Virus record (IMG/VR): IMGVR_UViG_3300017963_000439
Location: 1-40,493 of that record
Reading direction: 5' to 3' (one strand)
DNA: 40,493 bases
DNA from: a virus
Shown here: positions 2,699 to 34,469 of the stretch, in pieces
Numbering within the stretch: position 1 is the stretch's first letter
Layout of the letters: each line of letters starts with the position of its first letter
Translations under genes and position numbers: made by a program
The notes under the pieces: model-generated
The model's database searches: none
Seen by the model: the letters and a program-made list of their open reading frames with translations, nothing else
Told to the model about the DNA's origin: nothing

Positions 2699-3187
2699 AT
2701 GACCTGGAAGATCGATACGAAAAGAGCTCTCCGATGCAACTTTTGCGACCTGGTCCACGACAAGGTCGAGGCCGGAGGCCTCTGGTATTGCCCGAATCCG
2801 ATCTGCCCGGGGTGTGGAGCGGCCTATCACCGTAGGAAGATGGACAGCTATCAGGAGATAGAGAACGGACGCCACACCGTAGACCCGAAGGAGAAGATCG
2901 CGATCGGCGAAAGGTTGCTCGAGCAACTCGACCTCGACCCGAACCTGTGGGAAGCTATTGAGCGCTGCGTGATCTACTACAAGGGCGGACCGAAGCCGCA
3001 CGTGCCGAAGGGCGGCTCGGAGCGCTTCAACGACCTCGGCCGCGAGCTCGCAAGGGAAGTCCAGGAAGAGATCCGACAGGAGGAGGTCGCCAGGCAGCGG
3101 GAGGCCTTCGCCAGGAGTGAGCTGGGAGGCAACGGGCGACGCGGCCTCAAGAGGCGGGTCGATGAGCGAAAGGATGCGGATAGGTAG
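2699..3187 (+). CDS. Zinc-finger-like hypothetical protein
   Basis: This 162-residue protein has an N-terminal metal-binding pattern: CNFC, then WYCPNPICPGCGAAYHRRKMDSY (two or three Cys pairs with a His within residues 13-50). The C-terminal part is charged, helical and rich in Arg, Glu and Gln. A similar Cys-rich head followed by a DSY motif occurs in hypothetical phage proteins, with no function I can name. A GAGG Shine-Dalgarno sequence precedes ATG 2699. Its last 26 bases overlap the second methyltransferase start, so the two are probably translated together. Confidence 0.7.
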   Translation: MTWKIDTKRALRCNFCDLVHDKVEAGGLWYCPNPICPGCGAAYHRRKMDSYQEIENGRHTVDPKEKIAIGERLLEQLDLDPNLWEAIERCVIYYKGGPKPHVPKGGSERFNDLGRELAREVQEEIRQEEVARQREAFARSELGGNGRRGLKRRVDERKDADR

Positions 3188-3920
3188 CCTGTTCTCTGGG
3201 ATCGGCGGACTCGAACTGGGCCTTGAGCAGTCCGGCTTGGGCTATACGACATGGCAGGTCGAGGCCGACGCCTTCTGCCGTTCCGTGTTGGCGCGCCATT
3301 GGCCCAGGGTCAAGAGGTACGAAGATGTTCGAGAAGTCGGAAGGCACAACCTCGAGGCAGTTGAACTCATCTGCGGAGGATTTCCCTGCCAAGACATCAG
3401 CGTCGCCGGCCGAGGAGCTGGGCTCGCGGGTGCTCGCAGCGGCTTGTGGTATGAGTTCCTCCGCGTTGTCGAAGAGCTTCGACCTGCATGGGTCGTGGTC
3501 GAGAACGTGGGCCATGGCAGCTCCCGGTGGGTTGACGGTGCTCGACAAGATTTGGAACTCGAGGGCTATGAAACGCTTCCGGTCCCACTTGCAGCGAAGC
3601 ATTGCGGAGCGCCCCACATTCGATCCCGCGTCTTCGTTGTTGCCCACGCCGAGCGCGAGCAGCTACGGGAGCTCGAACAACGGGTGCCCGCACGACGGGC
3701 GCACCGAATACGCTACGAAGGGGAAGCCGAGCTTGTGGACCCTCGCGAAGCGAGAAGGTGGCAGCCTCTCCCCGAACTATGTCGAAGCGATGATGGGGTT
3801 CCCCGAGAATTGGACCGTGCCAGATTACGCGCCCTCGGAAATGCTGTCGTCCCAAGAGTAGCCGAAGTTGTCGGTCACGTGGTGTCGCAATGGCACGCAC
3901 AAATCGTGGACGAGCGATGA
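3162..3920 (+). CDS. C5 cytosine-specific DNA methyltransferase, second copy
   Basis: This 252-residue Dcm-family enzyme has motif I (FSGIGG from residue 11), motif IV (GGFPCQDIS, nucleophile Cys76), motif VI (ENV, about 114-116), motif VIII (GAPHIRSRVF) and motif X (RLRALGNAVVPRVAEVV). All catalytic motifs are present and the spacing is compact, so it is probably active. It is diverged from the first methyltransferase and lacks the HNH insert, so the two may have different targets. ATG 3162 is chosen because of the GAGG upstream; ATG 3174 directly before motif I is an alternative. Its stop overlaps the next ATG (ATGA at 3917). A second protein frame overlaps it. Confidence 0.9.
   Translation: MSERMRIGSLFSGIGGLELGLEQSGLGYTTWQVEADAFCRSVLARHWPRVKRYEDVREVGRHNLEAVELICGGFPCQDISVAGRGAGLAGARSGLWYEFLRVVEELRPAWVVVENVGHGSSRWVDGARQDLELEGYETLPVPLAAKHCGAPHIRSRVFVVAHAEREQLRELEQRVPARRAHRIRYEGEAELVDPREARRWQPLPELCRSDDGVPRELDRARLRALGNAVVPRVAEVVGHVVSQWHAQIVDER
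3325..3861 (+). CDS. Overlapping +1-frame protein nested in the second methyltransferase gene
   Basis: This frame encodes 179 residues from ATG 3325, in the same +1 relation to its host gene as 202-1029 has to the first methyltransferase. It shares that protein's pattern: an N-terminal part opposite the catalytic motifs (SAEDFPAKTSASPAEEL), then LLPTPSASSYGSSNN, then LSPNYVEAMMGFPENWT. The PTPSA element and the (N/S)PxxVExxMGxP element match the first copy although the host genes are diverged. The N-terminal similarity could be forced by the overlapping catalytic motifs, but the later motifs lie opposite a poorly conserved part of the enzyme. Expression is unproven and its own ribosome-binding site is not obvious. 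Confidence 0.5.
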   Translation: MFEKSEGTTSRQLNSSAEDFPAKTSASPAEELGSRVLAAACGMSSSALSKSFDLHGSWSRTWAMAAPGGLTVLDKIWNSRAMKRFRSHLQRSIAERPTFDPASSLLPTPSASSYGSSNNGCPHDGRTEYATKGKPSLWTLAKREGGSLSPNYVEAMMGFPENWTVPDYAPSEMLSSQE

Positions 3921-4129
3921 TCGGAATACAAACCAACGAGCAGCGCGTCCGGATGATGGCAGAAGCCCTCGATCGTCTCGGCTTCTACAACGAAGCACGA
4001 CGAGTCGAAGCGCAGTATTCGGCTTATACGCGCGGCGGTGTTGTTGTTCTGCACCTCGACACGCTCGAGGCTCTCGTGGAGATCGCGCTTGAGCGGAAGG
4101 ACTTGACGAAGGGCAACGACTCAGGGTAA
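3917..4129 (+). CDS. Small hypothetical protein
   Basis: This 70-residue protein starts at an ATGA junction with the second methyltransferase. It is predicted to be mostly helical (EQRVRMMAEALDRLGFYNEA, then LDTLEALVEIALERKDL) with no recognisable motif. It closes the first gene block; the control region 4130-4377 follows. Codon use matches the neighbours, supporting a real gene. Confidence 0.6.
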   Translation: MIGIQTNEQRVRMMAEALDRLGFYNEARRVEAQYSAYTRGGVVVLHLDTLEALVEIALERKDLTKGNDSG

Positions 4130-4255
4130 CGTCGAGATGTTCGGGCAGCCGTTGTCGACAGCAACGGCCGGACATGCAGGAATGGAACTAGGGGGGAACG
4201 GTGGTGGTCCCATCGGCGTTGCATACGTGCGCGCTGTTGACAACAGAATACAGTT

Positions 4256-4271
4256 TCGGGCTTCGGCCCGA
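4256..4271 (+). other. UUCG-tetraloop hairpin
   Basis: Perfect six-base-pair stem TCGGGC/GCCCGA closed by the very stable C(UUCG)G loop. It sits two bases before the terminator stem and may act with it, for example as an anti-exonuclease cap or part of an attenuator. Confidence 0.7.
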
Positions 4272-4273
4272 CC

Positions 4274-4362
4274 GAAAGCGCCCTGTTTGGGCTCGGGGAT
4301 CCTGGAGAACCCTCCTAGTTCCTCCCCGGAGCCCCTGTCGAAGCAGGGCGCTTTCTTTTTTT
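4274..4362 (+). terminator. Intrinsic terminator with a long composite stem
   Basis: A perfect 12-base-pair outer stem pairs GAAAGCGCCCTG (4274-4285) with CAGGGCGCTTTC (4344-4355) and is followed at once by seven T residues (4356-4362). An inner stem pairs GGGCTC-GGGG (4289-4298) with CCCCGGAGCCC (4324-4334). The loop between them is longer than in ordinary terminators, so a regulatory role is possible. It would separate methylation-block transcripts from the initiator genes. Confidence 0.8.
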
Positions 4363-4377
4363 GCTGCGGAGGCAGAG

Positions 4378-4803
4378 ATGCCGGACTCCATTGGCGCCCA
4401 GGAATGGGCCTTCGTCTGCGAGGACCTCCTCGATCGTCTTCTGCCCCGCGAGATCGGAGGTGAGGCCTTCGAGGTCTTCGCCTTCCTGATCTACCGTTCC
4501 ATCGATGGCGGCGAAGGGGCTCGCCTCCCCCGGGAGGACGGCCTCCACATGCTCTACGACTGCACGATCATCGGTGATGCGCTGCAGTTGAGCGAGGCCA
4601 AGGTGCGCAAAGCGGTGAGGGTCCTGGCCAAGCGCGGGTGGATCCGAGTGGAAGGCAACAATGGCAACGCCATCATCCACGTGGGGCGGATGTACTTCGG
4701 CCCGGACGGCGAGATCGATGGGGTCGAACTGATCTACGACAAAGCGATGGCCGAGGTGGACCGTCGCGGCGAGGCCTCAACCTCGCAAGGGAAGGGCGCA
4801 TGA
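4378..4803 (+). CDS. Winged-helix DNA-binding protein, probable replication-associated
   Basis: This 141-residue protein has a winged helix-turn-helix (LQLSEAKVRKAVRVLAKRGW) after a helical segment (IGGEAFEVFAFLIYRSI). The layout parallels the N-terminal part of the next gene, so the two look like tandem paralogues. I infer a replication-initiation accessory or a regulator. The frame stays open upstream to 4201, but that part reads through the terminator and is rejected; ATG 4378 has a GAGG Shine-Dalgarno sequence. The stop overlaps the next start (ATGA at 4800). Confidence 0.75.
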   Translation: MPDSIGAQEWAFVCEDLLDRLLPREIGGEAFEVFAFLIYRSIDGGEGARLPREDGLHMLYDCTIIGDALQLSEAKVRKAVRVLAKRGWIRVEGNNGNAIIHVGRMYFGPDGEIDGVELIYDKAMAEVDRRGEASTSQGKGA

Positions 4804-6431
4804 GCAAGAGGCACGACTACTACATCAAGGTCCAGCACGACCATTTCGACACCGCCATGCCCCAGCACGTCGGCGAGCGGGCCTATCAGGTCTACCAGGT
4901 GCTGAAGCGCTTCGTGTGGCGGAACGAAGAGGACGGCAACCAGTCCATCGTCGGCTTCGCGCGAGCGGGCCTGCTCGCCGTTCGCCTCTCAACGCGCAAG
5001 CTGGCTACGTACGTGGGCATCACGCGCCGGCATCTCAGCCGAATGCTCAAGCAGCTCGACGAACTCGGATGGATCATCCGGGTCCCGGAGAAGCCCCAGG
5101 GAGGTGCTTCGAACATCCTCGTCCTCGGCTACGTGTCGACCCGCGGGAGCGTACGACCGCGCCGCCACGAGGTCTTCTTCGCGGACATCTATGCCTCGTT
5201 CATGTACGAGGAGGTCGAGCAGTACGCCGAGAGCAAGTACCGATCGATCCTCCACCTGGACATGGCCGATCGCCTCGAAGTCGTGGACGCGAGATCCGAG
5301 GCTGCGACCGCTCTGCTGCAAAAGATCGCAAGAAACACGAACATTACGGGAAAAATTACGCAGATTCTGCGCGATCCGGAGCCAGGAGAATCCTGGGGAA
5401 TCCTGGGGACTTCCGGAGCAACTACTGAACATAAACCGGGGGCACGCGGGTCATACAACCGGGGACCCGGGGGTCATACAACCGGGGACCCGGGGGTCAT
5501 ACAACCGGGGACCCGGGTTTCCCCAAGAATAGATAACAAGGAAAGAGCAAACGACGAACACCAAACAACGAATATCCCCCCACAGCCCCCGGCCGCTATC
5601 GCGACCGAGGACGTGGTGGGTGACGCGCTATCGCGCGCAGTAGAGAGCACCCCGGAAAATTTCGTGGAGGTCGAACCACCACGAGAAGAGCTGCAAGGGG
5701 TGGGAGCAGTTGGACAGCCCTCTCCGCGGCGGTCGGCTTTTCGGCCTGCTGAGCGTGACGAGGAGCCCCGCTCCTCCTGGGGGTCGCGGAAGAGCTCCTG
5801 GGGTAGCGGCAAGCCGAAAGCGAAGGCGAAGTCGCAGCCGGCCTATTCGAAGATCCCGAAGCGGCCCAAGGCGTCTGCTCCGCCTTCGATCGTCGGCGAC
5901 GATGCCCTCGAAGAGGTTCGCGCCATCGTGCAGAAGGGCAAGCTCAAGGAGGGCGACGCGCTCGCGAAGCCGAAGGGCAAGCGCCGATCGGATCCCTGGG
6001 CCAAGGACCTGCCCCTGGGCATGGAGGCCGCGATAGGACGCCTCGGTGAGGTCTGGCAGCAAGCGCTCGATGCGCGCGGCAAGGACGAGGTGCAGAGCCC
6101 GTTCCGCACGGAGAAGGTGCGCTGGAAGACGGTAGAGCTCCTCGAGGCGTACGGCGAAGAACGCCTCGCCGGCGCGGTCCGTTACATGGTGCGCAACTGG
6201 GACATGTTGCGCGAAGCCAAGAAGTGGAAGTCGGTGTCGCCCTCGGTGATGGTGCTCTACTACTACGCCGACGACCTCGTGAACGAAGCGAAGCTCTACG
6301 CGGGCGCGCAAGACGCGATCGACACCTGGGAGGAGTGGCGCTCGAAGCACCCCGGGCGGCTCCGAGCCCCGGACGAGATTCAGAAGCCCTACATGGAGGC
6401 CCAGAAGCTGCGCCAGCAGATCGGGCTGTGA
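4800..6431 (+). CDS. Putative replication initiator with winged-helix domain; gene contains iterons
   Basis: This 543-residue protein has an N-terminal winged helix (LSTRKLATYVGITRRHLSRM, then LDELGWIIRV). A low-complexity middle of about residues 200-400 is rich in Gly, Pro, Ser and Lys. A helical C-terminal domain of about 140 residues begins near DPWAKDLPLGMEAAIGRLGE. The layout (DNA-binding N-terminus, flexible linker over repeated DNA, C-terminal interaction domain) recalls lambda O and other phage initiators whose origin lies inside the gene. Three 23-bp direct repeats (5449-5517) encode part of the linker and are not a multiple of three, so selection there is probably on DNA. Loader and helicase genes follow directly. 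Specific homology to O is not claimed. Confidence 0.7.
   Translation: MSKRHDYYIKVQHDHFDTAMPQHVGERAYQVYQVLKRFVWRNEEDGNQSIVGFARAGLLAVRLSTRKLATYVGITRRHLSRMLKQLDELGWIIRVPEKPQGGASNILVLGYVSTRGSVRPRRHEVFFADIYASFMYEEVEQYAESKYRSILHLDMADRLEVVDARSEAATALLQKIARNTNITGKITQILRDPEPGESWGILGTSGATTEHKPGARGSYNRGPGGHTTGDPGVIQPGTRVSPRIDNKERANDEHQTTNIPPQPPAAIATEDVVGDALSRAVESTPENFVEVEPPREELQGVGAVGQPSPRRSAFRPAERDEEPRSSWGSRKSSWGSGKPKAKAKSQPAYSKIPKRPKASAPPSIVGDDALEEVRAIVQKGKLKEGDALAKPKGKRRSDPWAKDLPLGMEAAIGRLGEVWQQALDARGKDEVQSPFRTEKVRWKTVELLEAYGEERLAGAVRYMVRNWDMLREAKKWKSVSPSVMVLYYYADDLVNEAKLYAGAQDAIDTWEEWRSKHPGRLRAPDEIQKPYMEAQKLRQQIGL
5389..5408 (+). repeat. Ten-base tandem duplication upstream of the iterons
   Basis: AATCCTGGGG occurs twice head to tail. 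It lies 40 bases before the iteron array inside the initiator gene and may be part of the same origin structure. Confidence 0.55.
5449..5517 (+). repeat. Three perfect 23-bp iterons, candidate replication origin
   Basis: Identical 23-base units occupy 5449-5471, 5472-5494 and 5495-5517. Each begins GGTCATACAACC and ends GGGGACCCGGG. A degenerate fourth copy (CATAAACCGGGG) precedes them at about 5429-5448. A markedly A-rich stretch follows at about 5518-5580 in an otherwise GC-rich genome, as expected for an unwinding element. The array sits inside the putative initiator gene and is followed by loader and helicase genes, so an origin is the natural reading. Confidence 0.7.
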
Positions 6432-6432
6432 C

Positions 6433-6446
6433 GGATCGGACGATCC
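6433..6446 (+). promoter_or_regulatory. Inverted repeat next to the helicase-loader ribosome-binding site
   Basis: GGATCG-GA-CGATCC has perfect 6-bp arms and is followed one base later by AAGGAGACGG and the ATG at 6458. The same 14 bases followed by the same ribosome-binding motif occur before 14461. It could be an operator or an RNA hairpin controlling access to the ribosome-binding site. Confidence 0.5.
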
Positions 6447-6457
6447 AAGGAGACGGA

Positions 6458-7042
6458 ATGGCAGAGGAGGGGATGAAGCTACTCAAGCTCGACAAGTCGC
6501 ATCTCGAATACATGCGACTGCCGCCCCGGTTGTGGCGGGTCACACCGGACAAGATCCCGGAGAGCGTGCAGCCGGTCTTCCGGCGCTTCCTTCGAGACCT
6601 CGAGGAGCGCATGACGCACGGCCCGACGGTGCTCCTGATGGGGGACCCCTTCGTCGGCAAGTCGGCGATGGCGGCTCTCGCGTGCAAACGAGCTCGCCAA
6701 TTGCGGAAGACGGTCCAGTTCTTCCGCCTCTGGGAGTACCGCGCTCTCCGCCGCAACAACGAACCCTTCGACATCGAGACTTCGATCGTGTCGCGTTGCA
6801 TGGACGTGGAGCTCCTTGTGTTCGACGACCTCACCGAAGACGACGCCAACGATAGCTGGTACGGCTTGAAGGACCTCCTGGGTTTGATCCGCACGCGGTC
6901 GGATTCGCTCCTCACGACGATCATCACGACGCGCTTGTCGGAGCAATCCCCCGTGATCGCGCACATCGTCGACTCCGTGTCGCCGCTCTTCGCGCTTCAC
7001 GTGGAAGGCCCCTCTCAGCAGGACTGGATGGAGGAGGACTGA
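6458..7042 (+). CDS. DnaC-like AAA+ helicase loader
   Basis: This 194-residue ATPase has Walker A GDPFVGKS (residues 62-69), Walker B LLVFDDL (Asp123, Asp124) and a sensor 1-like strand TIITTRL. Size and motifs fit the DnaC/IstB-type loaders that place DnaB-family helicase on single-stranded DNA at the origin. The position between a putative initiator and the helicase, which starts at 7042 in a one-base stop/start overlap, supports this. ATG 6458 follows a clear AGGAGACGGA ribosome-binding motif; the frame is open further upstream but only within the previous gene. Confidence 0.82.
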   Translation: MAEEGMKLLKLDKSHLEYMRLPPRLWRVTPDKIPESVQPVFRRFLRDLEERMTHGPTVLLMGDPFVGKSAMAALACKRARQLRKTVQFFRLWEYRALRRNNEPFDIETSIVSRCMDVELLVFDDLTEDDANDSWYGLKDLLGLIRTRSDSLLTTIITTRLSEQSPVIAHIVDSVSPLFALHVEGPSQQDWMEED

Positions 7043-9462
7043 TGGCGTACGTCGAATTTGTGTCGAAGCTCGTCCACGAGGGGCGCGAGGCGGTCTACAA
7101 GGCGGCCTCGGCAGGGATCGAACCCGACCACCTCGGTCAACAGCAGGCGAAGGACCTCTACAGCTACCTCCTCGAGTACATCAAGCAGTACGACGACTTC
7201 CCGACAGTGGCGACGATCGAGGGCTACCTCGGCATCGCCGTTCCTCCTCCGCCCCCCGAGCCTCTCGACTTCTGGATCGACCGCATCCAGGAGTTTCGGG
7301 TCCTCTCGGTTCTGCTCAAGCACGACGAGAAGATGGGCGACGCGGTCCAGCGCCGCCACGCGGGGGACGGCGTCGAGATCCTCGAAACGACCCAACGCCT
7401 CCTGCGAGAGCAGCACCTGGTGGTCGGTCGCGTCGCGGACCTCTTCGGCAACGTGCATGGCGCATGGCAGCGCTACAACGACATCAAGCAGGGCAAGCAG
7501 GGCGTCCCCTTCCCGTGGCCGAGCATGACGAATGAGACGCTCGGCATGTGGCCGAAGGATCTCATCCTCGTCGTTGCCAGGACGGGCGTCGGTAAGTGCG
7601 TGGATGGCGATACGGAGCTCATGGACCCGAAATCCGGATTGGTTCGGAAGATCCGGCATGTCGTCAGGGACCACTATAGCGGGGCAGATCGGATGCCGCG
7701 CTGCCCGTCTCCGTTCGATAGGATTCAGAGCTGGTCGAAGGACGAGGGGCGCCTAGTCAGGGCGTCGATCGCCGCGAAGGTGGACACCGGGGTGAAGGAG
7801 TGCCTCGAATTCGTTTTAGCGAGCGGCAAGAGCGTGGTGGTGACCCCGGAGCATCCCTTCATTCTCCCGGACGGATGGCGTCGAGCAGATGAAGTCCGCA
7901 TAGGCGAGACAGTTGGTACTCCGTGCCATGTCGGCTTCCCGGAGGCCCCCATTGAGATGCCGAGTGCGGAGCTCGACCTGTTGGCGGTCATGCTCGCAGA
8001 CGGTAGTTGCACCGGGCATCACGTGTCTTTCACGAAGCACGATCCGGAGATTGTTCGTATCGCTGGCGAAGCCGCAGATGAGATCGGAGCTTCCACGGTA
8101 CGCGTTCGCTCCCACGAGTACGCCTTCACTGGTACTGGTGAATCGAAGGGGAAGGTCAATCCAGTTCGCCAGCTTCTACGAGCGCACGGCGTGGACAAGA
8201 CCCTGTCGAAGAACAAGCACATTCCGGAGGCGGTCTTCCGGCTCGACCGAGACCAACTCGCCCGCTTCTTGTCTGTGTTCTGGATGTGCGATGGGTACGT
8301 GGACAACGGTCCGGGTATTGTGCTCGCGAGCGAGCGGATGTTGCGGCAGATCGCGCATCTGTTGCTCCGTTTCGGTATCCGATGCTCCGTGCATCACAAG
8401 CCGACGCGTCTGAAGGGGGCGTTGTTCGACGCGTGGCGGCTTCGTGTGTACTCCGACTGCTGGGAGACCTTTGCGGGCGAGATCGCTCTGTGGGGGAACA
8501 AGCGCAAGCGAATGCAGGAGCTGTTGCGGCGCGGTCGTAACGCGAACGTGGGGAGTCCTCGGGTCTGGGACGGGGTGCGAATCCGACGCTACAAGCGCTG
8601 CCAGCGGCACGAGAAAGGCGTGCGGGGGTCAGAAGCTTGGTGGTGGGACTCCGGTCTGTTCTGGGATCCTGTCGAAGAGATCCGGCATGCTGGAGAGCGA
8701 CGCGTCTTCGACCTTACCGTACCGGTGTCCGAGTGCTTCGTCGCCAACGACATCGTCGTGCACAACACATGGACGTTGATTCTGATGGCGCTCACCGCGT
8801 GGAAGGCCGGACACAAGGTCCTCTTCGCCACCACGGAGATGTCGCAGGACACGCTCATGCAGCGGTTCCTCGCCGTCCACCTTCGGCTGCCGTACAGGAT
8901 GCTGCGGCAGGGCAAGCTCCCCATGGTGGACGAGGTGCGTTTCGAGAATTCGCTCAACGAGCTGCAGGCGTCGGAGGGCCTCTACATCATTGGCGGCCAC
9001 TTCGACTTCCGTGTCGAGTCCGTCGATGCCGCCATCGAGGAGTGCCGCCCGGATCTCGTGATCCTCGACGGTGCCTACCTGTTGAAGGTGCCCGGCAAGA
9101 CCCGGACGGAGCGCATGGCGGAGGCTTTCAATGAGTTGAAGCGCCTCGCGATGAGCCACGAGGTCCCGCTCGTTACCACGACCCAGTTCAACCGTGAGGC
9201 GAAGAAGGGCAAGGCACAAACGAGCGTCCTTGAGAACATCGGCCTCTCCGACGTCGGCGGTTGGAACGCGGACCTCGCTTTCGCGCTCACGGCGACCGAG
9301 GAGATGGAGAAGGCACACGCGATGGGCGTCGTGATGATGAAGGGCCGCGAGGTGAAGATCGAGCCCTTCGAGGTGAACTGGGACTTCGACCTTATGGACT
9401 TCTCGGAGAAGACCGACGATCAGGGAGTCGACCTCGGCCCCGACGACGACCCGATTTTCTAG
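7042..9462 (+). CDS. DnaB-type replicative DNA helicase precursor with intein
   Basis: The 806-residue precursor would give a 416-residue helicase after removal of the 390-residue intein (residues 186-575). The N-terminal extein is a helical domain of about 150 residues followed by the RecA-fold core. The Walker A motif ARTGVGK-T is split by the intein between Lys185 and the threonine that follows it, so the unspliced protein cannot bind ATP normally. Later motifs are Walker B (DLVILDGAYLL) and a TTTQFNREAKKG segment typical of DnaB-family helicases. It should unwind the replication fork as a hexamer loaded by the preceding protein. The C-terminus is acidic and ends DDDPIF, like SSB tails. 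Confidence 0.88.
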   Translation: MAYVEFVSKLVHEGREAVYKAASAGIEPDHLGQQQAKDLYSYLLEYIKQYDDFPTVATIEGYLGIAVPPPPPEPLDFWIDRIQEFRVLSVLLKHDEKMGDAVQRRHAGDGVEILETTQRLLREQHLVVGRVADLFGNVHGAWQRYNDIKQGKQGVPFPWPSMTNETLGMWPKDLILVVARTGVGKCVDGDTELMDPKSGLVRKIRHVVRDHYSGADRMPRCPSPFDRIQSWSKDEGRLVRASIAAKVDTGVKECLEFVLASGKSVVVTPEHPFILPDGWRRADEVRIGETVGTPCHVGFPEAPIEMPSAELDLLAVMLADGSCTGHHVSFTKHDPEIVRIAGEAADEIGASTVRVRSHEYAFTGTGESKGKVNPVRQLLRAHGVDKTLSKNKHIPEAVFRLDRDQLARFLSVFWMCDGYVDNGPGIVLASERMLRQIAHLLLRFGIRCSVHHKPTRLKGALFDAWRLRVYSDCWETFAGEIALWGNKRKRMQELLRRGRNANVGSPRVWDGVRIRRYKRCQRHEKGVRGSEAWWWDSGLFWDPVEEIRHAGERRVFDLTVPVSECFVANDIVVHNTWTLILMALTAWKAGHKVLFATTEMSQDTLMQRFLAVHLRLPYRMLRQGKLPMVDEVRFENSLNELQASEGLYIIGGHFDFRVESVDAAIEECRPDLVILDGAYLLKVPGKTRTERMAEAFNELKRLAMSHEVPLVTTTQFNREAKKGKAQTSVLENIGLSDVGGWNADLAFALTATEEMEKAHAMGVVMMKGREVKIEPFEVNWDFDLMDFSEKTDDQGVDLGPDDDPIF
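7597..8766 (+). mobile_element. Intein in the helicase Walker A motif (LAGLIDADG type)
   Basis: This 390-residue in-frame intein begins with Cys (CVDGDTELMDP, block A) and ends VVHN before Thr (block G). Block B is VVVTPEHPFILPDGW. Two LAGLIDADG-like motifs (LLAVMLADGS and LSVFWMCDGYV) show a homing endonuclease domain. The +1 extein residue is Thr. Insertion in a P-loop is a classic intein site because the target is highly conserved. Confidence 0.92.
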
Positions 9463-9471
9463 GAGCTCTTC

Positions 9472-10428
9472 ATGGACAGGGCGCTCGCCTTTGTTGACCC
9501 CCTCCCGATGGCGCTTCAGTACGTCGAGCTGGGCTGGCATCCGATCCCTCTCTGTTGGCCGGACATCTTTGGGGAGTGCGCCTGTGGGCGCGGACACGGC
9601 GAGCACAGCATCGGGAAGGCCCCTCTGACGCGCTACGGGTATCAGGACCTCCGGGTGGACGAGGCGATGGTTCGGCGGTGGTGGAAGTGGAAGCCGAGCG
9701 CCAACATCGGCCTTCTGCTCGAGCCCTCCGAGCTCGTCGTGGTAGACCTCGACGGCCCTGCCGCTCTCGAAGAGGCCGAGGCCCTCGGATTGCCCGACAC
9801 GCTGCGCGTCAGCACGGGCAAGGGGTGGCACTACTACTACCAGCGCCCCAAGGATTGCGCGGCGGGACGCGCCACGCAGAAGGGCGAGTCGCGGCTGATC
9901 GACATCCTCGCCAAGGGCTACGTAGTAGCTCCCCCCTCGGTCCACGTCTCGGGCCGCGTCTACGTCTGGAATGCGGCTGCGCGAGCCAAGTTGGCGCCAG
10001 CCCCCGCGTGGGCGCTCGATTTCTTGCCGAAGCCGTCGTGGATGCTCCGCAAGGGCTTCAAGCCGCCGAGCAATCGCTTCAACGAGGGCGAGGCCGACGT
10101 GAGCACCGTCCGTGCCGCGATCCGCCACCTTGAGCCCGAGGACTACGACCTCTGGTTGCATGTCGGCTTCGCGCTCCAGACCTGGGACGACGTCGGCAAC
10201 GGCCACGGTGAAGGCTTCCGAATGTGGGACGAGTGGTCGCGCTACTCGAGCAAGTACCCCGGGACCAAAGAGCTCCAACGGAAGTGGGCTTCCTTCCGCA
10301 AGCGCGGTGGCGGCAAGGGCCTCGGAACGCTCTTCGACCTCGCCAAGAAAGCAGGGTGGGCACCCGAGCGTATCGCGGCGTCTCCCGCTTCCTCCGTGGG
10401 CGCATGGCGTAGTACGTTGACCGCTTGA
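9472..10428 (+). CDS. Bifunctional primase-polymerase (Prim-Pol)
   Basis: This 318-residue protein resembles the AEP-fold Prim-Pol domain. GWHPIPL lies near the start, the metal-binding pair is in VVVDLDG (Asp92, Asp94), the S-x-H-like GKGWHYYYQRP contains His120, and LIDILAKGYVVAPPS supplies a third acidic residue (Asp144). A CxC-H-H cluster near residues 36-45 may bind zinc. The C-terminal part (AIRHLEPEDYDLWLHVGFAL, then a GTLFDLAKKAGW end) looks like a primase C-terminal helical domain. It probably makes primers for the replisome; some relatives also polymerise DNA. It lies nine bases after the helicase with an AGGAG ribosome-binding site. Confidence 0.85.
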   Translation: MDRALAFVDPLPMALQYVELGWHPIPLCWPDIFGECACGRGHGEHSIGKAPLTRYGYQDLRVDEAMVRRWWKWKPSANIGLLLEPSELVVVDLDGPAALEEAEALGLPDTLRVSTGKGWHYYYQRPKDCAAGRATQKGESRLIDILAKGYVVAPPSVHVSGRVYVWNAAARAKLAPAPAWALDFLPKPSWMLRKGFKPPSNRFNEGEADVSTVRAAIRHLEPEDYDLWLHVGFALQTWDDVGNGHGEGFRMWDEWSRYSSKYPGTKELQRKWASFRKRGGGKGLGTLFDLAKKAGWAPERIAASPASSVGAWRSTLTA

Positions 10429-18035: not shown

Positions 18036-18582
18036 CAAGCGTCTCGGTCAGCTTGGCCCCGTTCGGCTGGGCCAAGTCGTGCGTGAGGCGACGCGTCGTG
18101 GTGATGCGGGCGTGCAGTACGCTGCCTTCGTCGCGCTTGACGAGTGGTACGAGGGGCAGATGGAGCTCCTCATGGAGGCCGAGGTGCTCGGTCCGCCGAT
18201 CGGCAAGGGGCGCCCGAAGAGCGTGCGCACGAAGGTCGGAGTGCGGAACTACACCCCGGCGACGACGGCCGCCTGGGAGCAGGCAGCGGCGATGGTCTTC
18301 CAAGCGGCGTGGGGCAAGGAGCAGTACTCCGGCCCCGCTGTGCTCCATGTCGAGGCGGTCTTCGACCGGCCGAAGGCGCTCCTTCGCAAGAAGGACCCGG
18401 AGGGGCGTTTCTGGAGGCCGAAGAAGCCAGATGCGGACAACGTGCTGAAGATCGTCGCGGATGCCATAGTGAAGGCCGCCGTGGTCGAGGACGACAGACA
18501 GATCGTCCGGTGGGCGATCCGGAGTTGCTACGCCGCCAAGGGTCACGGCTCCCTTGTAGCGGTGAAGCTGTTCAAGCTGTGA
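18007..18582 (+). CDS. rusA: RusA-like Holliday junction resolvase
   Basis: This 191-residue protein has an N-terminal helical extension of about 50 residues. The RusA fold follows: EVLGPPIGKGRPKSV at the start, LHVEAVFDRPKALL, and the catalytic KKPDADNVLKIVADAI with VVEDDRQIV. The D-x-D-N and D-D elements supply the acidic metal-binding residues of RusA, which cuts four-way junctions symmetrically. It fits beside the RecA-like protein and two other nucleases. The extension is longer than in E. coli RusA (about 120 residues in total). Confidence 0.88.
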   Translation: MSVVDYLLDSKRLGQLGPVRLGQVVREATRRGDAGVQYAAFVALDEWYEGQMELLMEAEVLGPPIGKGRPKSVRTKVGVRNYTPATTAAWEQAAAMVFQAAWGKEQYSGPAVLHVEAVFDRPKALLRKKDPEGRFWRPKKPDADNVLKIVADAIVKAAVVEDDRQIVRWAIRSCYAAKGHGSLVAVKLFKL

Positions 18583-19524: not shown

Positions 19525-19720
19525 GATCATCGACGGGCAGCTACAGAACAGCATCGAGATCCTGAAGGGGTGGCGGCAGCGGCTGGCTACCCTGCAGCCT
19601 GCGGGCTTCCACTTCTCGGATCCAGACCAGTACGAGGAATTCGTCGCTCGCATCAACGCGGAGCTCACGATCGTTTCCTCGATGTTGGACACCTTGTCCG
19701 CAGTGCTCTTGGAGGTGTGA
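19475..19720 (+). CDS. Small helical hypothetical protein
   Basis: This 81-residue protein has a short strand-rich start (MTIDGRVTFPVLPE) and two long helices (NSIEILKGWRQRLATL, then QYEEFVARINAELTIVSSML). GGAGG lies nine bases before ATG 19475, inside the previous gene. The stop overlaps the ParB-like start (TGATG). No family is recognised. Confidence 0.6.
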   Translation: MSEMTIDGRVTFPVLPEIIDGQLQNSIEILKGWRQRLATLQPAGFHFSDPDQYEEFVARINAELTIVSSMLDTLSAVLLEV

Positions 19721-20538
19721 TGACCGCAGAATTCGAGCAGACCTATCTCCCCATCGACCAGCTCCAGCCGAACGACTGGAATGCGCAGTCGATGGACGAT
19801 GTGACCTTCGACCGCCTGGTCGAGGAGATCCGGGGTGCCGAGGAGGGCGGCGTCGGCTTCATCTCGCCGGTCACCGTGGTGGACCTCGGCAATGACACGT
19901 ACCGCATCCTCGGCGGAGAGCACCGATGGCGTGCCGCTCGCGTGGCGGGCCTCAAGCGGATTCCTGCGCTCGTGTTGCCGCTCGACGACTGGGATGAGGA
20001 CCAGCAGAAGTTCGTCACCGTCCGGCTCAACATCCTGAGCGGTAAGCTCGACCCCGAGCGCTTCATCGGCCTCTACAACGAGATGGTCGACAAGTACGGC
20101 GAGGAACCCCTCCAGGAGCTCTTCGCGTTCACGGACGAGCAGGCCTTCAAGCGCATCGTCGGTCAGATGACGCAGGATGTGAAGAAGACCCTGCCGAAGA
20201 AGTTGAGCGACGAATTCACGGAGAAGGCCTCGAAGGCGAAGTCCGTTGACGACCTGGCAGGCATCGTCCAGGACATGTTCAACCGCTACGGCGACACCGT
20301 CGACCAGAGCTACATGATCTTCGTCTACGGGAAGCAACGGCACATCTACATCAAGCTCGATCGGCAGGGCCGCCGTGCGATGGACCGTGTCTTTCAGTAC
20401 TGCGCGGAGACTGCGGTCGACATCAACGACTTCATGGCGCCCATCGTCACGGAGCTGGCCAGGAGGGCGGAAAAGCAGCTCGGCGCGGCCAAGAAAGCCG
20501 AGGAGGAGCGAGCTCAGGAGGACGACATCGCCTTCTGA
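19720..20538 (+). CDS. ParB/Spo0J-like nuclease-fold protein
   Basis: This 272-residue protein has the ParB/sulfiredoxin N-terminal fold: LPIDQLQPNDWNAQ, then PVTVVDLGNDTYRILGGEHR and WRAARVAGLKRIPALVL. The GEHRWRA motif corresponds to the nucleotide-binding box of ParB-type CTPases. After a helical middle, the C-terminus ends in an acidic tail (QEDDIAF) like an SSB tip. Phage ParB-like proteins can act in partition, as nucleases or in regulation; no parA gene is in the window. GGAGG precedes ATG 19720, which shares one base with the previous stop. Confidence 0.8.
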   Translation: MTAEFEQTYLPIDQLQPNDWNAQSMDDVTFDRLVEEIRGAEEGGVGFISPVTVVDLGNDTYRILGGEHRWRAARVAGLKRIPALVLPLDDWDEDQQKFVTVRLNILSGKLDPERFIGLYNEMVDKYGEEPLQELFAFTDEQAFKRIVGQMTQDVKKTLPKKLSDEFTEKASKAKSVDDLAGIVQDMFNRYGDTVDQSYMIFVYGKQRHIYIKLDRQGRRAMDRVFQYCAETAVDINDFMAPIVTELARRAEKQLGAAKKAEEERAQEDDIAF

Positions 20539-20627: not shown

Positions 20628-23600
20628 ATGGCCTCCTACTACAAGTGCACGCCGAATCGGCTCTTCTGCTTCAAGTGGTCGAAGAAGGACCCGACGAAGG
20701 TTCAGCCGGTCTACATCACTCACGACAAGATTGGGGAGCATTACCCGCTCCTCATCGACCCGCCAGCCGATTCGAAGTGGGCGGAGAAAATCAAGGGCAA
20801 GGTCCCTCCTGGGTACCAAGGGCCGCAGGACTTGCAACCGACCTCTGGGAAGATCGAGATCGAGTCGTCGTCGCCGAACGAGCTCGCGTCTACGCTCCAC
20901 AAAGGCGTCAAGGCCGGCAAGACCTTCGGTCCGCAGGACCTGGTCAACACCATGTCCGGTCAGGGCTTCGACGTGGAAGCTGCGGCGGAGAAGTTCGGTG
21001 GCCTCGCCAGTGCCCTCGAGAAGGCTTTCGGGAAGGAGTGGAAGGCCGATTACGCGAAGGCTCTCGAGGACGGCTTGAAGCCGACGTCACTCGGTGTCGG
21101 CGAGGTTCCTCCCTCGAAGACCGAGCCAGAACCGGAAGGGCCGCCGGACCCCGAGGTGGTGGCGTCGAAGGTTCTCCCTTCGGAAGCGCAAGTGCTTGTT
21201 CTGGGCATCGACAACAAGGGCATCGACAACCTCAGTGCGGAGGACGAGAAGAAGGCGAAGGCGGCCTTCGGCAAGGATTGGGAGCAGCGCTACCACGCGG
21301 CCAAGGCCACGATCCTCGCCGGGCAGTTGGTGCCGCTCACGGCGACGCCGAACGATGTTATCCCGCTTGAGGCCGTCAAGGCGGCACGCGATCAGTTCAT
21401 GGAGATCACGGGCTACGACAAGAAGGCTGCGCATCACTTCCTGAAGACGGCCTGGCGCATGTCGCAGCCCCCGTGGCAGGACGTGAAGAAGTCGCTCTTC
21501 AACGGACTCGTGAGTGCGCACAAGCACCAAGAGAACGAGCACGGCATCCTTCCCATCCCGGAGTACCCCGCGAAGGAGATCGAAGTCGAGCCCGCGAGTA
21601 CCGTTCCGGATCCTGGCACCGATCCGGACGACGACGTGGATGTCGGGCCTGAAGCAGCTTCGCTGACGGGCTTCTCTGGCGAGGCGAAGATCCTCTTCGA
21701 CTTCACGAACGATGTCGGCTTCTCGGCGCTCGACGAAGAGGACGACGAGGAACTCGGGGAGGCCCTCGGAGGGGGTTGGAAGAACCAGGCAGGCGCGCTC
21801 AACTTCGCGTTTGACGCGTATGCGGGCGTGGAGTCCGATGCGCTGGCGGAGAAGTACGGCGTCGAGCACGACGACATCATGAAGATGTTCGACCTGCTCG
21901 GGTCCGTGGCGGACAACACGCAGAACGCCGAGGGCGACTTCTACGCCTCTTTCTCCGACGCCACGAACGGTAAGTACGACTCGCTCGCCGGCTTGGCCTC
22001 GCTTGAGCCTGGAGTCGACAAGCTCGAGAATCTGCCCGAGGAAGCGGGCATCCTTCTCGACACGGTCGACGAGCTCGGCGGTATCAAGGCGGTCTGGGAC
22101 GACCCGGAAGCGGACGAGCTCTTCTCGGAGCATTTCGGCGAAGACTGGAAGTACATGGCGGCGGGGCTCGCCATGGGCAAGGACCTCGTCGATACGATTG
22201 TTCCTGGTGCGGGGCAGGCGGCCTTGCAGACGGCTTTCCAGCAGAAAGCGGACGAGTACGGAATCACGAAGGACCAGGCGGTGATGGTATACGCCACTGC
22301 CATCAATATCGAGGGTGGGCACGCACAAGGCACGGTCGAGGCGCTCACTGCCTACTTCAAGAAGGGGTGGGAGGATGCACACCCGGACAAGGAGAAGGCC
22401 TTCCTCACGTCGCTCAAGCAGGGCGTGGTGGTTCCGATTTCTGCGGGCGGTGCGTTCTCGGCGGTCTACGCGGCTCGCGCGGAGTCCTTCACCGGGCTGG
22501 ACGGCGGCAAGAAGGCGATGCTCCCGAGCACTCGAGAGCAGCTCAAGAACCACGGCGTGGACCTCACCACCTCGGAGGGCCGCTCGAAGTTTGCGGCGTT
22601 CGGGTTGCTCGATCGCGTTCGCATCAAGGGGCTCGGGGCCAACGCTTCGGATGCGGCCCGCAAGGCGATGTGGTCGGACCCGAAGAAACTGATCGACGAC
22701 GAATCGCTTCGTCGTTCGGGGCTCCCTGTGGATGACGAACTCCGCGAGGGGCTTCACGCCGCGATCAAGGGGATTCTTTCGACGCCAGACCAGACGACGA
22801 AGAATGCGGAACTCAATGGGTTGATGAATCTCGTCCGGGTGAAGCGGCAGGAGTACAGTCTAGCGTTGGCCGAGGGAGTCGTTTCGGACCTGGCTGCGGA
22901 TTCTGGCCACGAGGCCCACAAGATTGTGGAGCGCATGAAGGCAGCGGGCGGTGATCCCCTCCAGGTGGATACTTCGGGGCTCTCCCTGAACTGGATGGAC
23001 ACCTACGAGGGACTCGCGATTGCGGGTTTGATGCAGAAGGAGGTGCCGTACGCCGTTCCGTCATCGGTCTCCACGTACAACCGGAAGATCGCTGCGGAGG
23101 CTCTCTTCACCGTGTCGCAGCAGGTCGCCTTGTTGTCCCGTTCGGCGTACAAATTCAAGAAGGCGGCAGGGGTCGCGAATGCGGGTTTGTACGCGGAGTA
23201 CTTCTCGAGTCGGGCTCTGGACCTGAAGACAGGGCAGTTCTTCGGATCCGTTTCTTCGTCCACGCTCAAGAAGTACGCAGAGGCCGCGATCATCAAGGGG
23301 CTGCCGGAGAAGTACCAGGACGCGGCGTACTTGGCGGCTTACTTCGACCCGAAGACGGGGACTTTCTCGGGAGGGGTCACCACCGAGCAGGAAATGGTGG
23401 ACGAACTCGGTGAGGACTGGAAGCTTCTGATCACGGGGGCTTCTTTGGCGGTGCAGCTCAAAGCGGCCGTGGTCGCTGCGGAGGTCATGTCGGCGGGGTC
23501 GACATCGATGGCCAACTGGCTTCCGTCGTTGAAGAGCCAGATCAAGCACGCCTTCGGGCTGAAGACGCTGTGCTCCATCAACGGCATGATGCAGGCGGCC

Positions 23601-26600
23601 AAGAACGGCCAGGTGTCCGTGGTGATGGCCAAATACAAGAAGGCCAAGAAGGTCCCGAGCCACTACATGGCCGCCCTCCCCACGTCGCAGCCTGCTGCGG
23701 GAGCGGCGTCTACGACTCCGGCGAGTACTCCGGCACCTGTTCCCCCCGTCGGCTTCAAGATCCCAGATATCCCCCCAGCCTCCGCACTCACCCTTGGTGG
23801 GAGTGCTACCGAGCTCGGCGGTATCAAGGCGAAGCAGTACGCGACGGACGCGAACCAGAACAAGTACCTTTTCAAGCCAGAGAAGGTGAAGGGCCTCGCG
23901 TCCCAAGCGGTGTCGGATTTGAGCTCCCTGCTCATGACTCCCGGGCAGTTCGTGCCGGTGAAGGTGTGTACGATCGGGGGCAAGGTGGGGGCCGTCCAGC
24001 CCATGATCGCGAACATGGGCCAGGTGCACTCGGTCGGCAGCTCCGGCATGACGATGCCGCAGACACCGATCCTGCAGATGAGCCAGGACCAGCTCAACGA
24101 CCTGCTTCGTGAGCGCGTGCTGGACTGGGCTGTCGGGAACCAGGACACGAAGCCCGACAACTTCCTGAAGGCGGGCAACGGCAAGATCATCGGGATCGAT
24201 AAGGAGCAGGCCTTCAAGTACATCCAGAGCGCGAAGCTCGAGGTGGGTGCGCAGTGCGCCCCGAACCCGACGATCTCGCTCTACGACAAGCTCTTCTCCC
24301 TCTACACGAAGGGCAAGATCGACCTCGACTTCAACAAGGCGATGCTGCCCTACATCAAGCGCGTCGAGAACATCCCCAACTCGAAGTGGATGGAGGCGGT
24401 CGACCCCTACATCGATGCGTGGGCCTCTTCGGCCGGTTGGACTTCGTCGGCCAAGCAGAGCTTCCGGGCTGCGGTACTCGCGAGGAAGAACGGCATCCGT
24501 GCGGACTTCGAGAGCTTCATCACGAAGCTCCGCAATGAACGTGGTATCTCTGGCGCGTTCAAGTTCGAGGAGGGGACCGCGCCGTCGATGGGGACTTCGA
24601 CCTCTTCTCTTCCGGTGCCGGCGATCCAGGACCTCATTCCGACTCAAGCCCCGAGTGCAGGAGCTACGCTCCCTGGCGCGGAATTCTACGAGGACGCTCA
24701 GGGCAATCGCTGGATGTACACGCCCTCCAAGGGGAAGACCGTGCACGCGTCGCTCGCGGGCGCGACGGCGTCGTGGATGGCCAAGAGGGTCAAGGACGCG
24801 TGCCCCAACGTCGGTTCCGTGCAACGCATGAAGGGTGGCAAGCTCGAGACGGGAACGTTGGCGCCCTGGTTCGAGGACACGAAGGGGAGCCTAGAGAGCA
24901 AGTCCCCTGCAGACCTCACCGAGCAACAGCGCGTCGACATCGGTGCGGAGCACGTAGCGGACTGGTGCATGGGTCAGAGCAACACGCATGCGGGCAACCT
25001 GATGGAACTCGAGGATGGCAGCATCATCGGGATCGACAAGGGGCTCGGGTGGCAGAACATGCAGACCGGCACGGAGTGCCTGGATGTCGACTGGTCGCCT
25101 CCCGGGTCGACGAAGCCCTCCTACTATTCGAAGTTCTGGAAGGACTGGACGGACGGCAAGTTCGACTTCGATGCGAAGAAGCTGGCTTCCGCAGTAGAGA
25201 GCGTCGAGAAGGTTGACGCGGCGGAATTCACTGCCAAGATCCGCCCCTTTGCGGAGGCGCTCCATCCTGGGAACAAAGCGAAGCAGGAGACCTTCATGCA
25301 GGCCGCGCGAGCTCGCAAGAACGGCATCCGGCGAGACTTCGAGGTCTTCCTCACGGGGTTGCACCGCAAGCGCTACGGGACGCAGGACGGCGTCTTCTCG
25401 TTCAAGAAGGGGTGGGTGTCCGGGACTTCGTCGTCGCCGCAGTCGCAGACCTACACGCAGACCTACTCGTCCCCCGACTTCCTCTCGGTCAAGACGAACG
25501 GCGGCTACGTGAAGCCCTTCACGGGAGACGCGTCGAAGCTGATGATCAAGGTGCCGCAGTCGGCGACGGCGGAGGCGCAGTTGAAGGCGACCCTCGACGA
25601 GATCGGCGTCACCCCGGTGGGCGATTTCATCTCCGGGCAGTACAACGTGGTGGTCCCCGTGAACAAAGCGGACTGGGATGCCGCGAGCGTGACGACCACG
25701 GAGGTGGTTACTTCTTCGTCGAATGCACCGCCTATTCTCCCGCATCCAGGCAAGCCGGAGTACGTGGCGAAGAATCCGCCGGCCCGATCGGTGCCGGGCA
25801 ACATGGACGACCTCGACAAGCTGATCGGAGACAACACGGACTGGGTCAATATCGGCTGGGGCGGCGTCGCGCTGACGGGCGATTCGGACGTGGTGAAGAA
25901 CCAGACCATGCGGGTCCGGAAGTGCCTCGACCAGAGCGGCAAGCCCTACTACGCGGTGGACTTCCGTCTGCGTGACGGAGTGCAGCTCTCGGCCCCAAGC
26001 AAGACGCACGCAGTGTGGACGAGCCCCCTGTCGGACTTCGACGAGGCCACTGGCGAATTCAAGGACAAGAGTGGTTCTCTCAAGCGCCTGCATTCGACCG
26101 CTCGCAAATGGAAGGTCGGCAACAGCGAGGCGTACGTGCTCGGCAAGAGCGCGAAGGTCTCGACGAGTGCGTCGTGGACGAACGCTCCGAAGGATGGTTC
26201 GGGTGCTGAGTTGGGCAACAACCATGCGTGCGTCAACAAGGTCCGGATGCAGCTTCGTTTGAAGCAGGGCGAGTCCTTCAGTGATGCGCTCGGCAAGATG
26301 CTCACCAAGATGGGCGGTGCGAACTTCCGCAAGAAGGTGATGCGCAATCCGACTGAGGAGGAGCTCGAGAAGCATCGTTTGATGGGCATGCTGTGGGCGT
26401 ACTCCCCGCAGGAGTCGGAGAAGCTGAAGGCTTCGGATGAGACCGTCTCTGGGCTCAAGGCGCGCTTGCTCGCGAAGGGGGTCACGGAGAAGCAACTCAG
26501 TCGCGTTGAGCAGGCCGAGATCGCGGATGGGATCACGGGCCTGGTCGAGCGAGGCCGCTGGCGAGATGTGAAGGACTCGAGCGGGAAGCCGGCGTTGCGC

Positions 26601-27251
26601 TTCTTCTCGTGGTCGCTCAAGAGCTCTGCGGCTCACCATGTCGCGAACATCCTTCAGAGCGGTATGAAAGGCCCGAACGGACGAATCTTCGGCGGACTCA
26701 GTGCGGCGGGGGAGTCCGTTGAGGGCGATCTGAATTCGGGCGGTGCGGACAGGATCACGATGCGGTCTCATTGCTCCCCGCATGACGACGTGAGCGTGTC
26801 TGGGTACGGCGGCATCGGCGGTGGGACTAGCCACGCGATTCAGTTCGTGATCGCTCCCGACCTTGCGGACCGGTTGGACCTGGTCCAGGTGACCCACGAT
26901 ACGTACGGAAAGACCACAGTGAGTCCGTCCTCCCTCAACGCTACTCCGGATTCGAGTAGCTGGTCGAGACGCGAACCTCTCCCGAAGGGGTTGATGCGGG
27001 TCGCGAATCAGTCGGCCAACACGAGTGCGGAGGTGGTCGTCGGGCAGTCGCTCGGGGCGAACTACATCTGCCGTGTGAACATCAAGCCGACTGCGTACGA
27101 TGCGCAGGGTGTCCGGAAGCAGGTCATCAAGACCCTGCGCGATGCGGGGATGGAAGAAGTAAACGGCGTTCCGGTCGAGGACTTCGTGGTCATCGAAGGG
27201 ACCGTGAAGGGCGTCTACGACAAGTACGTCAAGCCGATGGGGTACTCCTGA
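20628..27251 (+). CDS. Giant protein with tandem kinase-like domains, second degenerate
   Basis: This 2207-residue protein has no signal peptide or clear membrane segment. Residues about 130-950 carry at least six loose repeats built around an FGxxWK-like motif (residues 134, 214, 380, 503, 577, 927). After a Pro/Ala-rich linker (about 1025-1060), residues 1079-1320 form a HipA/PI3K-like kinase domain: Lys1083 in KYLFKPEK, catalytic loop GNQDTKPDNFL (Asp1173, Asn1178) and metal-binding GID (Asp1191). A second copy (about 1355-1600) aligns throughout, but Lys is replaced by Thr1365 and the catalytic Asp by Asn1452; GID (Asp1470) is kept. The last 220 residues resemble ADP-ribosyltransferase-like proteins, weakly. 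It could be an injected or host-modifying effector. Its large size and separate promoter set it apart from the replication genes. Confidence 0.6.
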   Translation: MASYYKCTPNRLFCFKWSKKDPTKVQPVYITHDKIGEHYPLLIDPPADSKWAEKIKGKVPPGYQGPQDLQPTSGKIEIESSSPNELASTLHKGVKAGKTFGPQDLVNTMSGQGFDVEAAAEKFGGLASALEKAFGKEWKADYAKALEDGLKPTSLGVGEVPPSKTEPEPEGPPDPEVVASKVLPSEAQVLVLGIDNKGIDNLSAEDEKKAKAAFGKDWEQRYHAAKATILAGQLVPLTATPNDVIPLEAVKAARDQFMEITGYDKKAAHHFLKTAWRMSQPPWQDVKKSLFNGLVSAHKHQENEHGILPIPEYPAKEIEVEPASTVPDPGTDPDDDVDVGPEAASLTGFSGEAKILFDFTNDVGFSALDEEDDEELGEALGGGWKNQAGALNFAFDAYAGVESDALAEKYGVEHDDIMKMFDLLGSVADNTQNAEGDFYASFSDATNGKYDSLAGLASLEPGVDKLENLPEEAGILLDTVDELGGIKAVWDDPEADELFSEHFGEDWKYMAAGLAMGKDLVDTIVPGAGQAALQTAFQQKADEYGITKDQAVMVYATAINIEGGHAQGTVEALTAYFKKGWEDAHPDKEKAFLTSLKQGVVVPISAGGAFSAVYAARAESFTGLDGGKKAMLPSTREQLKNHGVDLTTSEGRSKFAAFGLLDRVRIKGLGANASDAARKAMWSDPKKLIDDESLRRSGLPVDDELREGLHAAIKGILSTPDQTTKNAELNGLMNLVRVKRQEYSLALAEGVVSDLAADSGHEAHKIVERMKAAGGDPLQVDTSGLSLNWMDTYEGLAIAGLMQKEVPYAVPSSVSTYNRKIAAEALFTVSQQVALLSRSAYKFKKAAGVANAGLYAEYFSSRALDLKTGQFFGSVSSSTLKKYAEAAIIKGLPEKYQDAAYLAAYFDPKTGTFSGGVTTEQEMVDELGEDWKLLITGASLAVQLKAAVVAAEVMSAGSTSMANWLPSLKSQIKHAFGLKTLCSINGMMQAAKNGQVSVVMAKYKKAKKVPSHYMAALPTSQPAAGAASTTPASTPAPVPPVGFKIPDIPPASALTLGGSATELGGIKAKQYATDANQNKYLFKPEKVKGLASQAVSDLSSLLMTPGQFVPVKVCTIGGKVGAVQPMIANMGQVHSVGSSGMTMPQTPILQMSQDQLNDLLRERVLDWAVGNQDTKPDNFLKAGNGKIIGIDKEQAFKYIQSAKLEVGAQCAPNPTISLYDKLFSLYTKGKIDLDFNKAMLPYIKRVENIPNSKWMEAVDPYIDAWASSAGWTSSAKQSFRAAVLARKNGIRADFESFITKLRNERGISGAFKFEEGTAPSMGTSTSSLPVPAIQDLIPTQAPSAGATLPGAEFYEDAQGNRWMYTPSKGKTVHASLAGATASWMAKRVKDACPNVGSVQRMKGGKLETGTLAPWFEDTKGSLESKSPADLTEQQRVDIGAEHVADWCMGQSNTHAGNLMELEDGSIIGIDKGLGWQNMQTGTECLDVDWSPPGSTKPSYYSKFWKDWTDGKFDFDAKKLASAVESVEKVDAAEFTAKIRPFAEALHPGNKAKQETFMQAARARKNGIRRDFEVFLTGLHRKRYGTQDGVFSFKKGWVSGTSSSPQSQTYTQTYSSPDFLSVKTNGGYVKPFTGDASKLMIKVPQSATAEAQLKATLDEIGVTPVGDFISGQYNVVVPVNKADWDAASVTTTEVVTSSSNAPPILPHPGKPEYVAKNPPARSVPGNMDDLDKLIGDNTDWVNIGWGGVALTGDSDVVKNQTMRVRKCLDQSGKPYYAVDFRLRDGVQLSAPSKTHAVWTSPLSDFDEATGEFKDKSGSLKRLHSTARKWKVGNSEAYVLGKSAKVSTSASWTNAPKDGSGAELGNNHACVNKVRMQLRLKQGESFSDALGKMLTKMGGANFRKKVMRNPTEEELEKHRLMGMLWAYSPQESEKLKASDETVSGLKARLLAKGVTEKQLSRVEQAEIADGITGLVERGRWRDVKDSSGKPALRFFSWSLKSSAAHHVANILQSGMKGPNGRIFGGLSAAGESVEGDLNSGGADRITMRSHCSPHDDVSVSGYGGIGGGTSHAIQFVIAPDLADRLDLVQVTHDTYGKTTVSPSSLNATPDSSSWSRREPLPKGLMRVANQSANTSAEVVVGQSLGANYICRVNIKPTAYDAQGVRKQVIKTLRDAGMEEVNGVPVEDFVVIEGTVKGVYDKYVKPMGYS

Positions 27252-34146: not shown

Positions 34147-34469
34147 TGGTCGAAGTTGACGACGTCCTCGAAGCTGTGTTCGGAATTCGTTCGGACTCTG
34201 CGTCCGACGTGACCCCTTCTGCCCTCGATGCGGACCGGTCGGAGGAGGTCGCGGAGTTGCTCGACTATGAGCAGGTGGTGCGCCAAGCTGGCATTCTCGC
34301 TGCTCAGGCTGTGGCGGACGGATTGGAGTCTGCCGGTTTGAGGCCTGCGGACTACTGCTCGCTGTTGCGCTTGCGGGAGCTGGTCCTGGAGCGACTTGTC
34401 AAAGCGATGCCAGAGTACGCGGAAGGCTTCATGGATGCCTTCTCCCAGCAGATGAGGATGAGGGGATGA
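34146..34469 (+). CDS. Hypothetical protein between terminase and portal
   Basis: This 107-residue acidic protein is predicted as helices (SEEVAELLDYEQVVRQAGIL, then LLRLRELVLERLVKAM). Its start shares a base with the terminase stop and its stop overlaps the portal start (ATGA at 34466). No family is recognised; position suggests a packaging or head accessory. Confidence 0.65.
   Translation: MVEVDDVLEAVFGIRSDSASDVTPSALDADRSEEVAELLDYEQVVRQAGILAAQAVADGLESAGLRPADYCSLLRLRELVLERLVKAMPEYAEGFMDAFSQQMRMRG

Follow-up and report, generated by a model that had tools for sequence, protein, structure and literature searches.

A candidate replication origin inside the initiator gene of an uncultivated phage, with similarly placed repeat arrays in related phages

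Bacteriophage lambda replicates with the host DnaB helicase and P. Its origin lies within gene O and is a characterised precedent for an origin laid out inside a gene (PMC7466680). The same kind of arrangement is found in phage SPP1, where oriL lies within gene 38 and contains direct repeats and an AT-rich unwinding element, in the gp38–gp39–gp40 system (PMC6316719), and in the rep gene of the RepA_N plasmid pSK41, which encodes a DNA-binding N-terminal domain and a separate C-terminal domain and carries four Rep boxes at its centre (PMC5703833). The linker encoded by the pSK41 origin is dispensable as protein (PMC5703833), which explains how such an array can sit within a gene. The intragenic layout is already known, and the repeat array that we describe here is very probably a further case of it.

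The array is found in a 40,493-base virus record (IMGVR_UViG_3300017963_000439), a single contig whose whole length is referred to here as the window, and which is probably a fragment of a larger phage genome because it is smaller than the 79–129 kb records of its relatives. An initial annotation made from the letters of the sequence had described a candidate origin with three identical 23-bp iterons and a degenerate fourth, a 10-bp tandem duplication ahead of them and an A-rich tract behind them, and each of these elements was recovered (Table 1). TRF and a register alignment both return the iterons, with copies of GGTCATACAACCGGGGACCCGGG in register at 5449–5471, 5472–5494 and 5495–5517 and the degenerate copy ending at 5448. 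The TRF call (5430–5517, period 23, 3.9 copies) scores 148, more than any other in the window (the runner-up scores 72). The self-match score of the array is 53.5; when the whole window was simulated 40 times under a first-order Markov model, no simulation exceeded 14.0. Exact copies of a 15-bp iteron core are confined to the array. The dyad within the iteron (CCGGG-GA-CCCGG, three copies) gave p=0.31 in a column-shuffling test. Directly 3′ of the array, positions 5525–5574 are both the A-richest (0.58) and the AT-richest (0.64) 50 nt of the 40.5-kb window, and the 10-bp duplication, which is real, is overlapped by a dyad read from the sequence as CCAGGA-gaa-TCCTGG. Iterons start at codon phases 1, 0, 2 and 1, bearing out the claim that the reading frame shifts from copy to copy. 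A search of Rfam gave no structured-RNA match. Reading the G-rich repeats as G-quadruplexes was set aside, several relatives having arrays that are not G-rich (e.g. L057 and L078).

Table 1. Coordinates of the candidate origin, of the neighbouring replication genes and of candidate origins in three cultured relatives
Feature	Position (window unless an accession is given)	Strand	Basis or remark
Small winged-helix protein, 141 aa, candidate co-regulator	4378..4803	+	overlaps initiator start codon
Initiator gene, encoding an N-terminal winged helix, a predicted disordered linker and a helical C-terminal domain	4800..6431	+	profiles, predicted structure
AT-rich peak 5′ of the 10-bp duplication, second in the window	5316..5370	+	AT scan
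10-bp tandem duplication GAATCCTGGG with overlapping dyad	5388..5409	+	sequence, TRF; candidate origin part
Degenerate first iteron	5426..5448	+	sequence, TRF
Three identical 23-bp iterons GGTCATACAACCGGGGACCCGGG	5449..5517	+	each with CCGGG-GA-CCCGG dyad
A-rich tract, candidate unwinding element	5518..5575	+	AT-richest 50 nt; position conserved in relatives
DnaC-like AAA+ helicase loader	6458..7042	+	profile
DnaB-like replicative helicase with intein	7042..9462	+	profiles
Prim-Pol primase	9472-10428		profiles
Candidate origin, DLP5	NC_042082 36411-36484		array rule; unannotated
Candidate origin, SM1	NC_041877 29472-29510		array rule; unannotated
Candidate origin, HJ05	OQ594355 about 54940-54993		array rule; unannotated

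Pfam and PHROG matches and the order of the genes agree with the placing of the array inside a winged-helix gene that precedes those of the loader and the helicase. The product of this gene (P0001) has 543 residues, matches Pfam HTH_Crp_2 and has weak PHROG matches to O-like initiators. An AlphaFold2 model built with 42 family members has a winged helix at about residues 26–95, a low-confidence linker at about 180–365 and a confident helical C-terminal domain, and the residues that the array encodes (211–239) fall inside the predicted disordered linker. On this model, the best explanation for the array being tolerated in the gene is that it would encode a disordered linker between two folded domains.

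Structure comparison of the winged helix gave the plasmid initiator entries 4pql, 4pt7, 5kbj and 4pta as best matches (Z 10.6 to 9.7; for 4pql_B Z 10.6, rmsd 2.2 and 90 aligned residues), with CRP winged helices tied among them at Z 9.9. These four entries we take, partly from their titles, to be staphylococcal RepA_N-type initiators. The C-terminal domain alone (pLDDT 89) found no clear match in the PDB or BFVD, the best PDB hits being to unrelated proteins at Z 5.3. The window protein resembles that of pSK41 in its predicted domain layout, with plasmid initiator entries, level with CRP domains, as the best matches of its winged helix; it differs in coming from a phage and not a plasmid, in having a C-terminal domain for which no clear PDB match was found, and in the absence of RepA_N (PF06970) from the 22 Pfam families matched at E≤0.01 by the 42 family members (0/42). 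The Phage_rep_O profile (PF04492) does not match P0001 and matches a single one of its 42 relatives (E=1.5e-4). Among PHROG initiation profiles, phrog_428 matches 24 and phrog_6493 matches 23 of the 42; a DnaD-like PHROG profile matches 23 of the 42 relatives but not P0001. By profile, the predicted initiator belongs to neither Phage_rep_O nor RepA_N.

The initial annotation had likened the layout to that of lambda, and the likeness held when gene O was put through identical scripts: four repeats lie in the middle of an initiator gene (annotated iterons spaced 20/24/23, as against 23 in the window), the AT-richest 40 nt begins right after iteron 4 and is A-rich on the coding strand, and a loader gene comes next. 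The iteron sequences are unrelated, however, and hhalign of the initiator against lambda O gave a probability of 6.8%, over the winged helix only, so homology is not demonstrable. Unlike lambda, the window phage encodes its own DnaB together with an AAA+ loader. In this it is like SPP1, whose gene content and order it shares, the initiator, the loader and a DnaB-type helicase all being encoded by the phage. A second origin is present in SPP1 (oriR); none was seen in the window, but this is probably a fragment and the phage may have one elsewhere.

Several features of the window lie beside this replication module. The small winged-helix protein encoded upstream is 48% identical in L088, the closest relative (below), and was rejected as a paralog of the initiator, there being no significant BLASTP match. 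Upstream of the replication genes, a long-armed inverted repeat at 4276–4366 (AAAGCGCCCTG ... CAGGGCGCTTT) is followed by a T run and is a candidate terminator-like element or structured leader, with no Rfam match. In DnaB the intein (about residues 186–576) sits at the Walker A motif, and L088 shares this region. Intein-type insertions are also present in a family-A DNA polymerase (27676–31299; Hint_2 at 341–385) and in a T4-like portal protein (34466–37501; Intein_splicing at 277–665). Elsewhere the window encodes two DNA methyltransferases near its left end (207–1535, C5-cytosine type by Pfam, and 3117–3920), a tRNA-Thr (GGT) at 18475–18564, a ParB-like nuclease at 19570–20538 that is also encoded in relatives, and a 2207-residue ORF (20628–27251) with no PHROG or Pfam match.

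Searches with the single initiator, loader and helicase proteins or with DNA returned no close relatives. The helicase search did recover distant phages with the gene order of the window, namely SM1, DLP5, RHph_TM16, HJ05, KarBoss and RHph_I4. The loader P-loop is canonical in the window (GDPFVGKS); the aligned loaders of these six phages (L002–L007) have no GKS/T at this site and are perhaps degenerate, non-ATPase proteins. A profile built from three helicases (window, DLP5 and SM1) yielded one close relative, L088, to which further scans added none, and no relative was found in the bacterial genomes searched.

L088 is a 128.9-kb contig with identities to the window of 63% for the intein-containing helicase, 51% for the loader and 31% for the initiator. 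It has no clean tandem array. Its linker does hold the densest CCCCGG/CCGGGG cluster in 14.7 kb (windows starting 3601–3631) and two copies of ACCCCCGG at a spacing of 22 bp. Immediately after the cluster, from 3717, come the A-richest 50 nt of L088, a location that matches that in the window. We read this as a degenerate version of the array; a sceptic may call it a failure of strict conservation.

Among the distant phages, DLP5 (Delepquintavirus), SM1 (Samunavirus), HJ05 (an Aeromonas phage) and KarBoss (a Vibrio phage) share with the window both the gene order and 21–23 bp repeats in the initiator gene, and differ from it in the repeat sequences, which are unrelated to those of the window. 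The initiator genes of TM16 and I4 have no clear array. In the DLP5 and HJ05 genomes the initiator array is the sole repeat of its class whose period is not divisible by three, and the SM1 genome has one further such repeat, near 72.1 kb. The records of DLP5, SM1, HJ05 and KarBoss call the initiator hypothetical and annotate no origin in the stretches examined. In the open-licence literature, to which our reading was confined and outside which earlier reports are possible, the main text of the DLP3 paper contains neither 'origin of replication' nor 'iteron'. The initial annotation had proposed GC skew as a check on the origin. The skew makes no turn at the array and is monotonic in the window, and after detrending its minimum is separated from the array by about 19 kb in DLP5, 1.8 kb in SM1 and 27 kb in HJ05; as an origin test it is uninformative because nearly all genes are on one strand.

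A wider comparison drew on 80 viral loci (64 distinct) collected with the helicase profile. The initiator was defined by position alone, as an ORF of 270 aa or more that is followed by a loader and then a helicase, which gave 49 distinct syntenic initiator genes, that of the window included, and an array was taken as a repeat at an offset of 18–28 nt scoring at least 14. Such arrays are present in 33 of the 49 initiator genes as against 2 of 197 other long ORFs from the same loci, which served as controls. Against codon shuffles, 36/49 initiator genes reach p<0.01; the 13 that miss it include HJ05 only through a wrong ORF pick, the true HJ05 gene having iterons. The period is 23 in 13 genes, 24 in ten, 22 in eight and 26 in two, and so is not divisible by three in 23 of the 33. 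Most arrays start at about residue 95–220, just past the winged helix, and it is this position in the initiator gene that recurs, the repeat sequence itself differing from phage to phage. Hyphenated dyads are seen in many arrays (e.g. GGTCCC-AAA-GGGACC and CCGGACA-CCA-TGTCCGG) and reach p<0.05 in 12 of 37 by column shuffling. At four loci (L026, L048, L050 and L051) the helicase match starts only at about query residue 191 and the array is displaced upstream by another 1.5 kb or so, which an insertion at the P-loop in these helicases too would account for.

Most syntenic linkers combine the array with a 3′ A-rich tract. Over the 100 nt that follow the array on its 3′ side, AT content is above the gene mean in 34/37 genes (Wilcoxon p=6.5e-9), while 5′ of the arrays it is not raised (p=0.25, 37 genes). 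The excess lies within the first 60 nt, with A on the coding strand as its main component. As linker codons (Lys, Glu, Asn) may partly cause this A bias, we do not claim its strand specificity as a DNA-level signal. Over the 37 arrays, iteron similarity is weakly correlated with similarity of the winged-helix half of the initiator (rho 0.109, permutation p=0.015; p=0.017 when partial on the C-terminal half), and similarity of the C-terminal half shows no correlation with it (p=0.24; p=0.51 in the partial test). The correlation is compatible with iteron binding by the N-terminal domain. Simple linkage would also explain it, because the winged-helix segment and the array are neighbours within the gene.

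We infer, with the comparison among relatives as the decisive evidence, that the array is very probably a replication origin of this phage, of the intragenic type seen in lambda, SPP1 and pSK41. On this reading of the sequence, the winged-helix N-terminal domain of the gene 4800–6431 product would bind the four iterons, and the initiator–iteron complex would melt the A-rich tract immediately 3′ of them. The C-terminal domain of the initiator and the AAA+ loader would then load the DnaB helicase encoded downstream, with primase and polymerase coming after.

Winged helices are commonly regulators, the structure comparison places CRP-type domains level with the plasmid initiators, and the gene immediately upstream encodes a further, small winged-helix protein. 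All of this would suit an operator through which either protein controls the transcription of the operon, the array having no part in an origin. We consider this improbable, as the array is deep within the gene with a one-sided AT-rich tract after it in 34/37 cases, the gene adjoins those of the loader and helicase, and its relatives match initiation profiles; nor was any promoter of the sigma-70-like type, the type scanned for, found in 3900–7200. A neutral minisatellite, or a repeat at the protein level, that arose by slippage in the linker is a very improbable reading. Three identical units do imply recent duplication or homogenisation, and the linker is predicted to be disordered, but a period of 23 shifts the frame so that no peptide repeat is kept, and a near-constant period recurs in the initiator gene of deeply diverged phages, as compared with 1% of control ORFs, as does the adjacent A-rich tract. 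There is likewise only the slightest chance of a partition-like, recombination or packaging site for another protein, such as the ParB-like nuclease encoded in the window and its relatives: the position in the initiator gene of relatives and the one-sided AT-rich tract suit an origin better, and iteron similarity tracks the N-terminal and not the C-terminal half of the initiator.

Taking the array as an origin, we offer tentatively, and with somewhat more doubt than confidence, a reading that concerns a broad group of phages, many of about 80–130 kb. The winged helix and the iterons may form an exchangeable cassette that sets origin specificity, as their weak correlation hints; in it the sequence turns over and leaves each phage with a private origin, the spacing (22–24 bp), the position and the one-sided A-rich tract stay fixed, and the half that loads the helicase, at the C terminus, has an evolution of its own. 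A parallel for such independence is the hybrid plasmid initiator pPR9 (PMC5703833).

These results provide a specific candidate origin for an uncultivated phage and for its cultured relatives DLP5, SM1, HJ05 and KarBoss, and suggest that the layout of lambda, SPP1 and pSK41 occurs commonly far beyond the lambdoids. The private iterons, each paired with its initiator, would make a data set on the co-evolution of initiator specificity and origin sequence.
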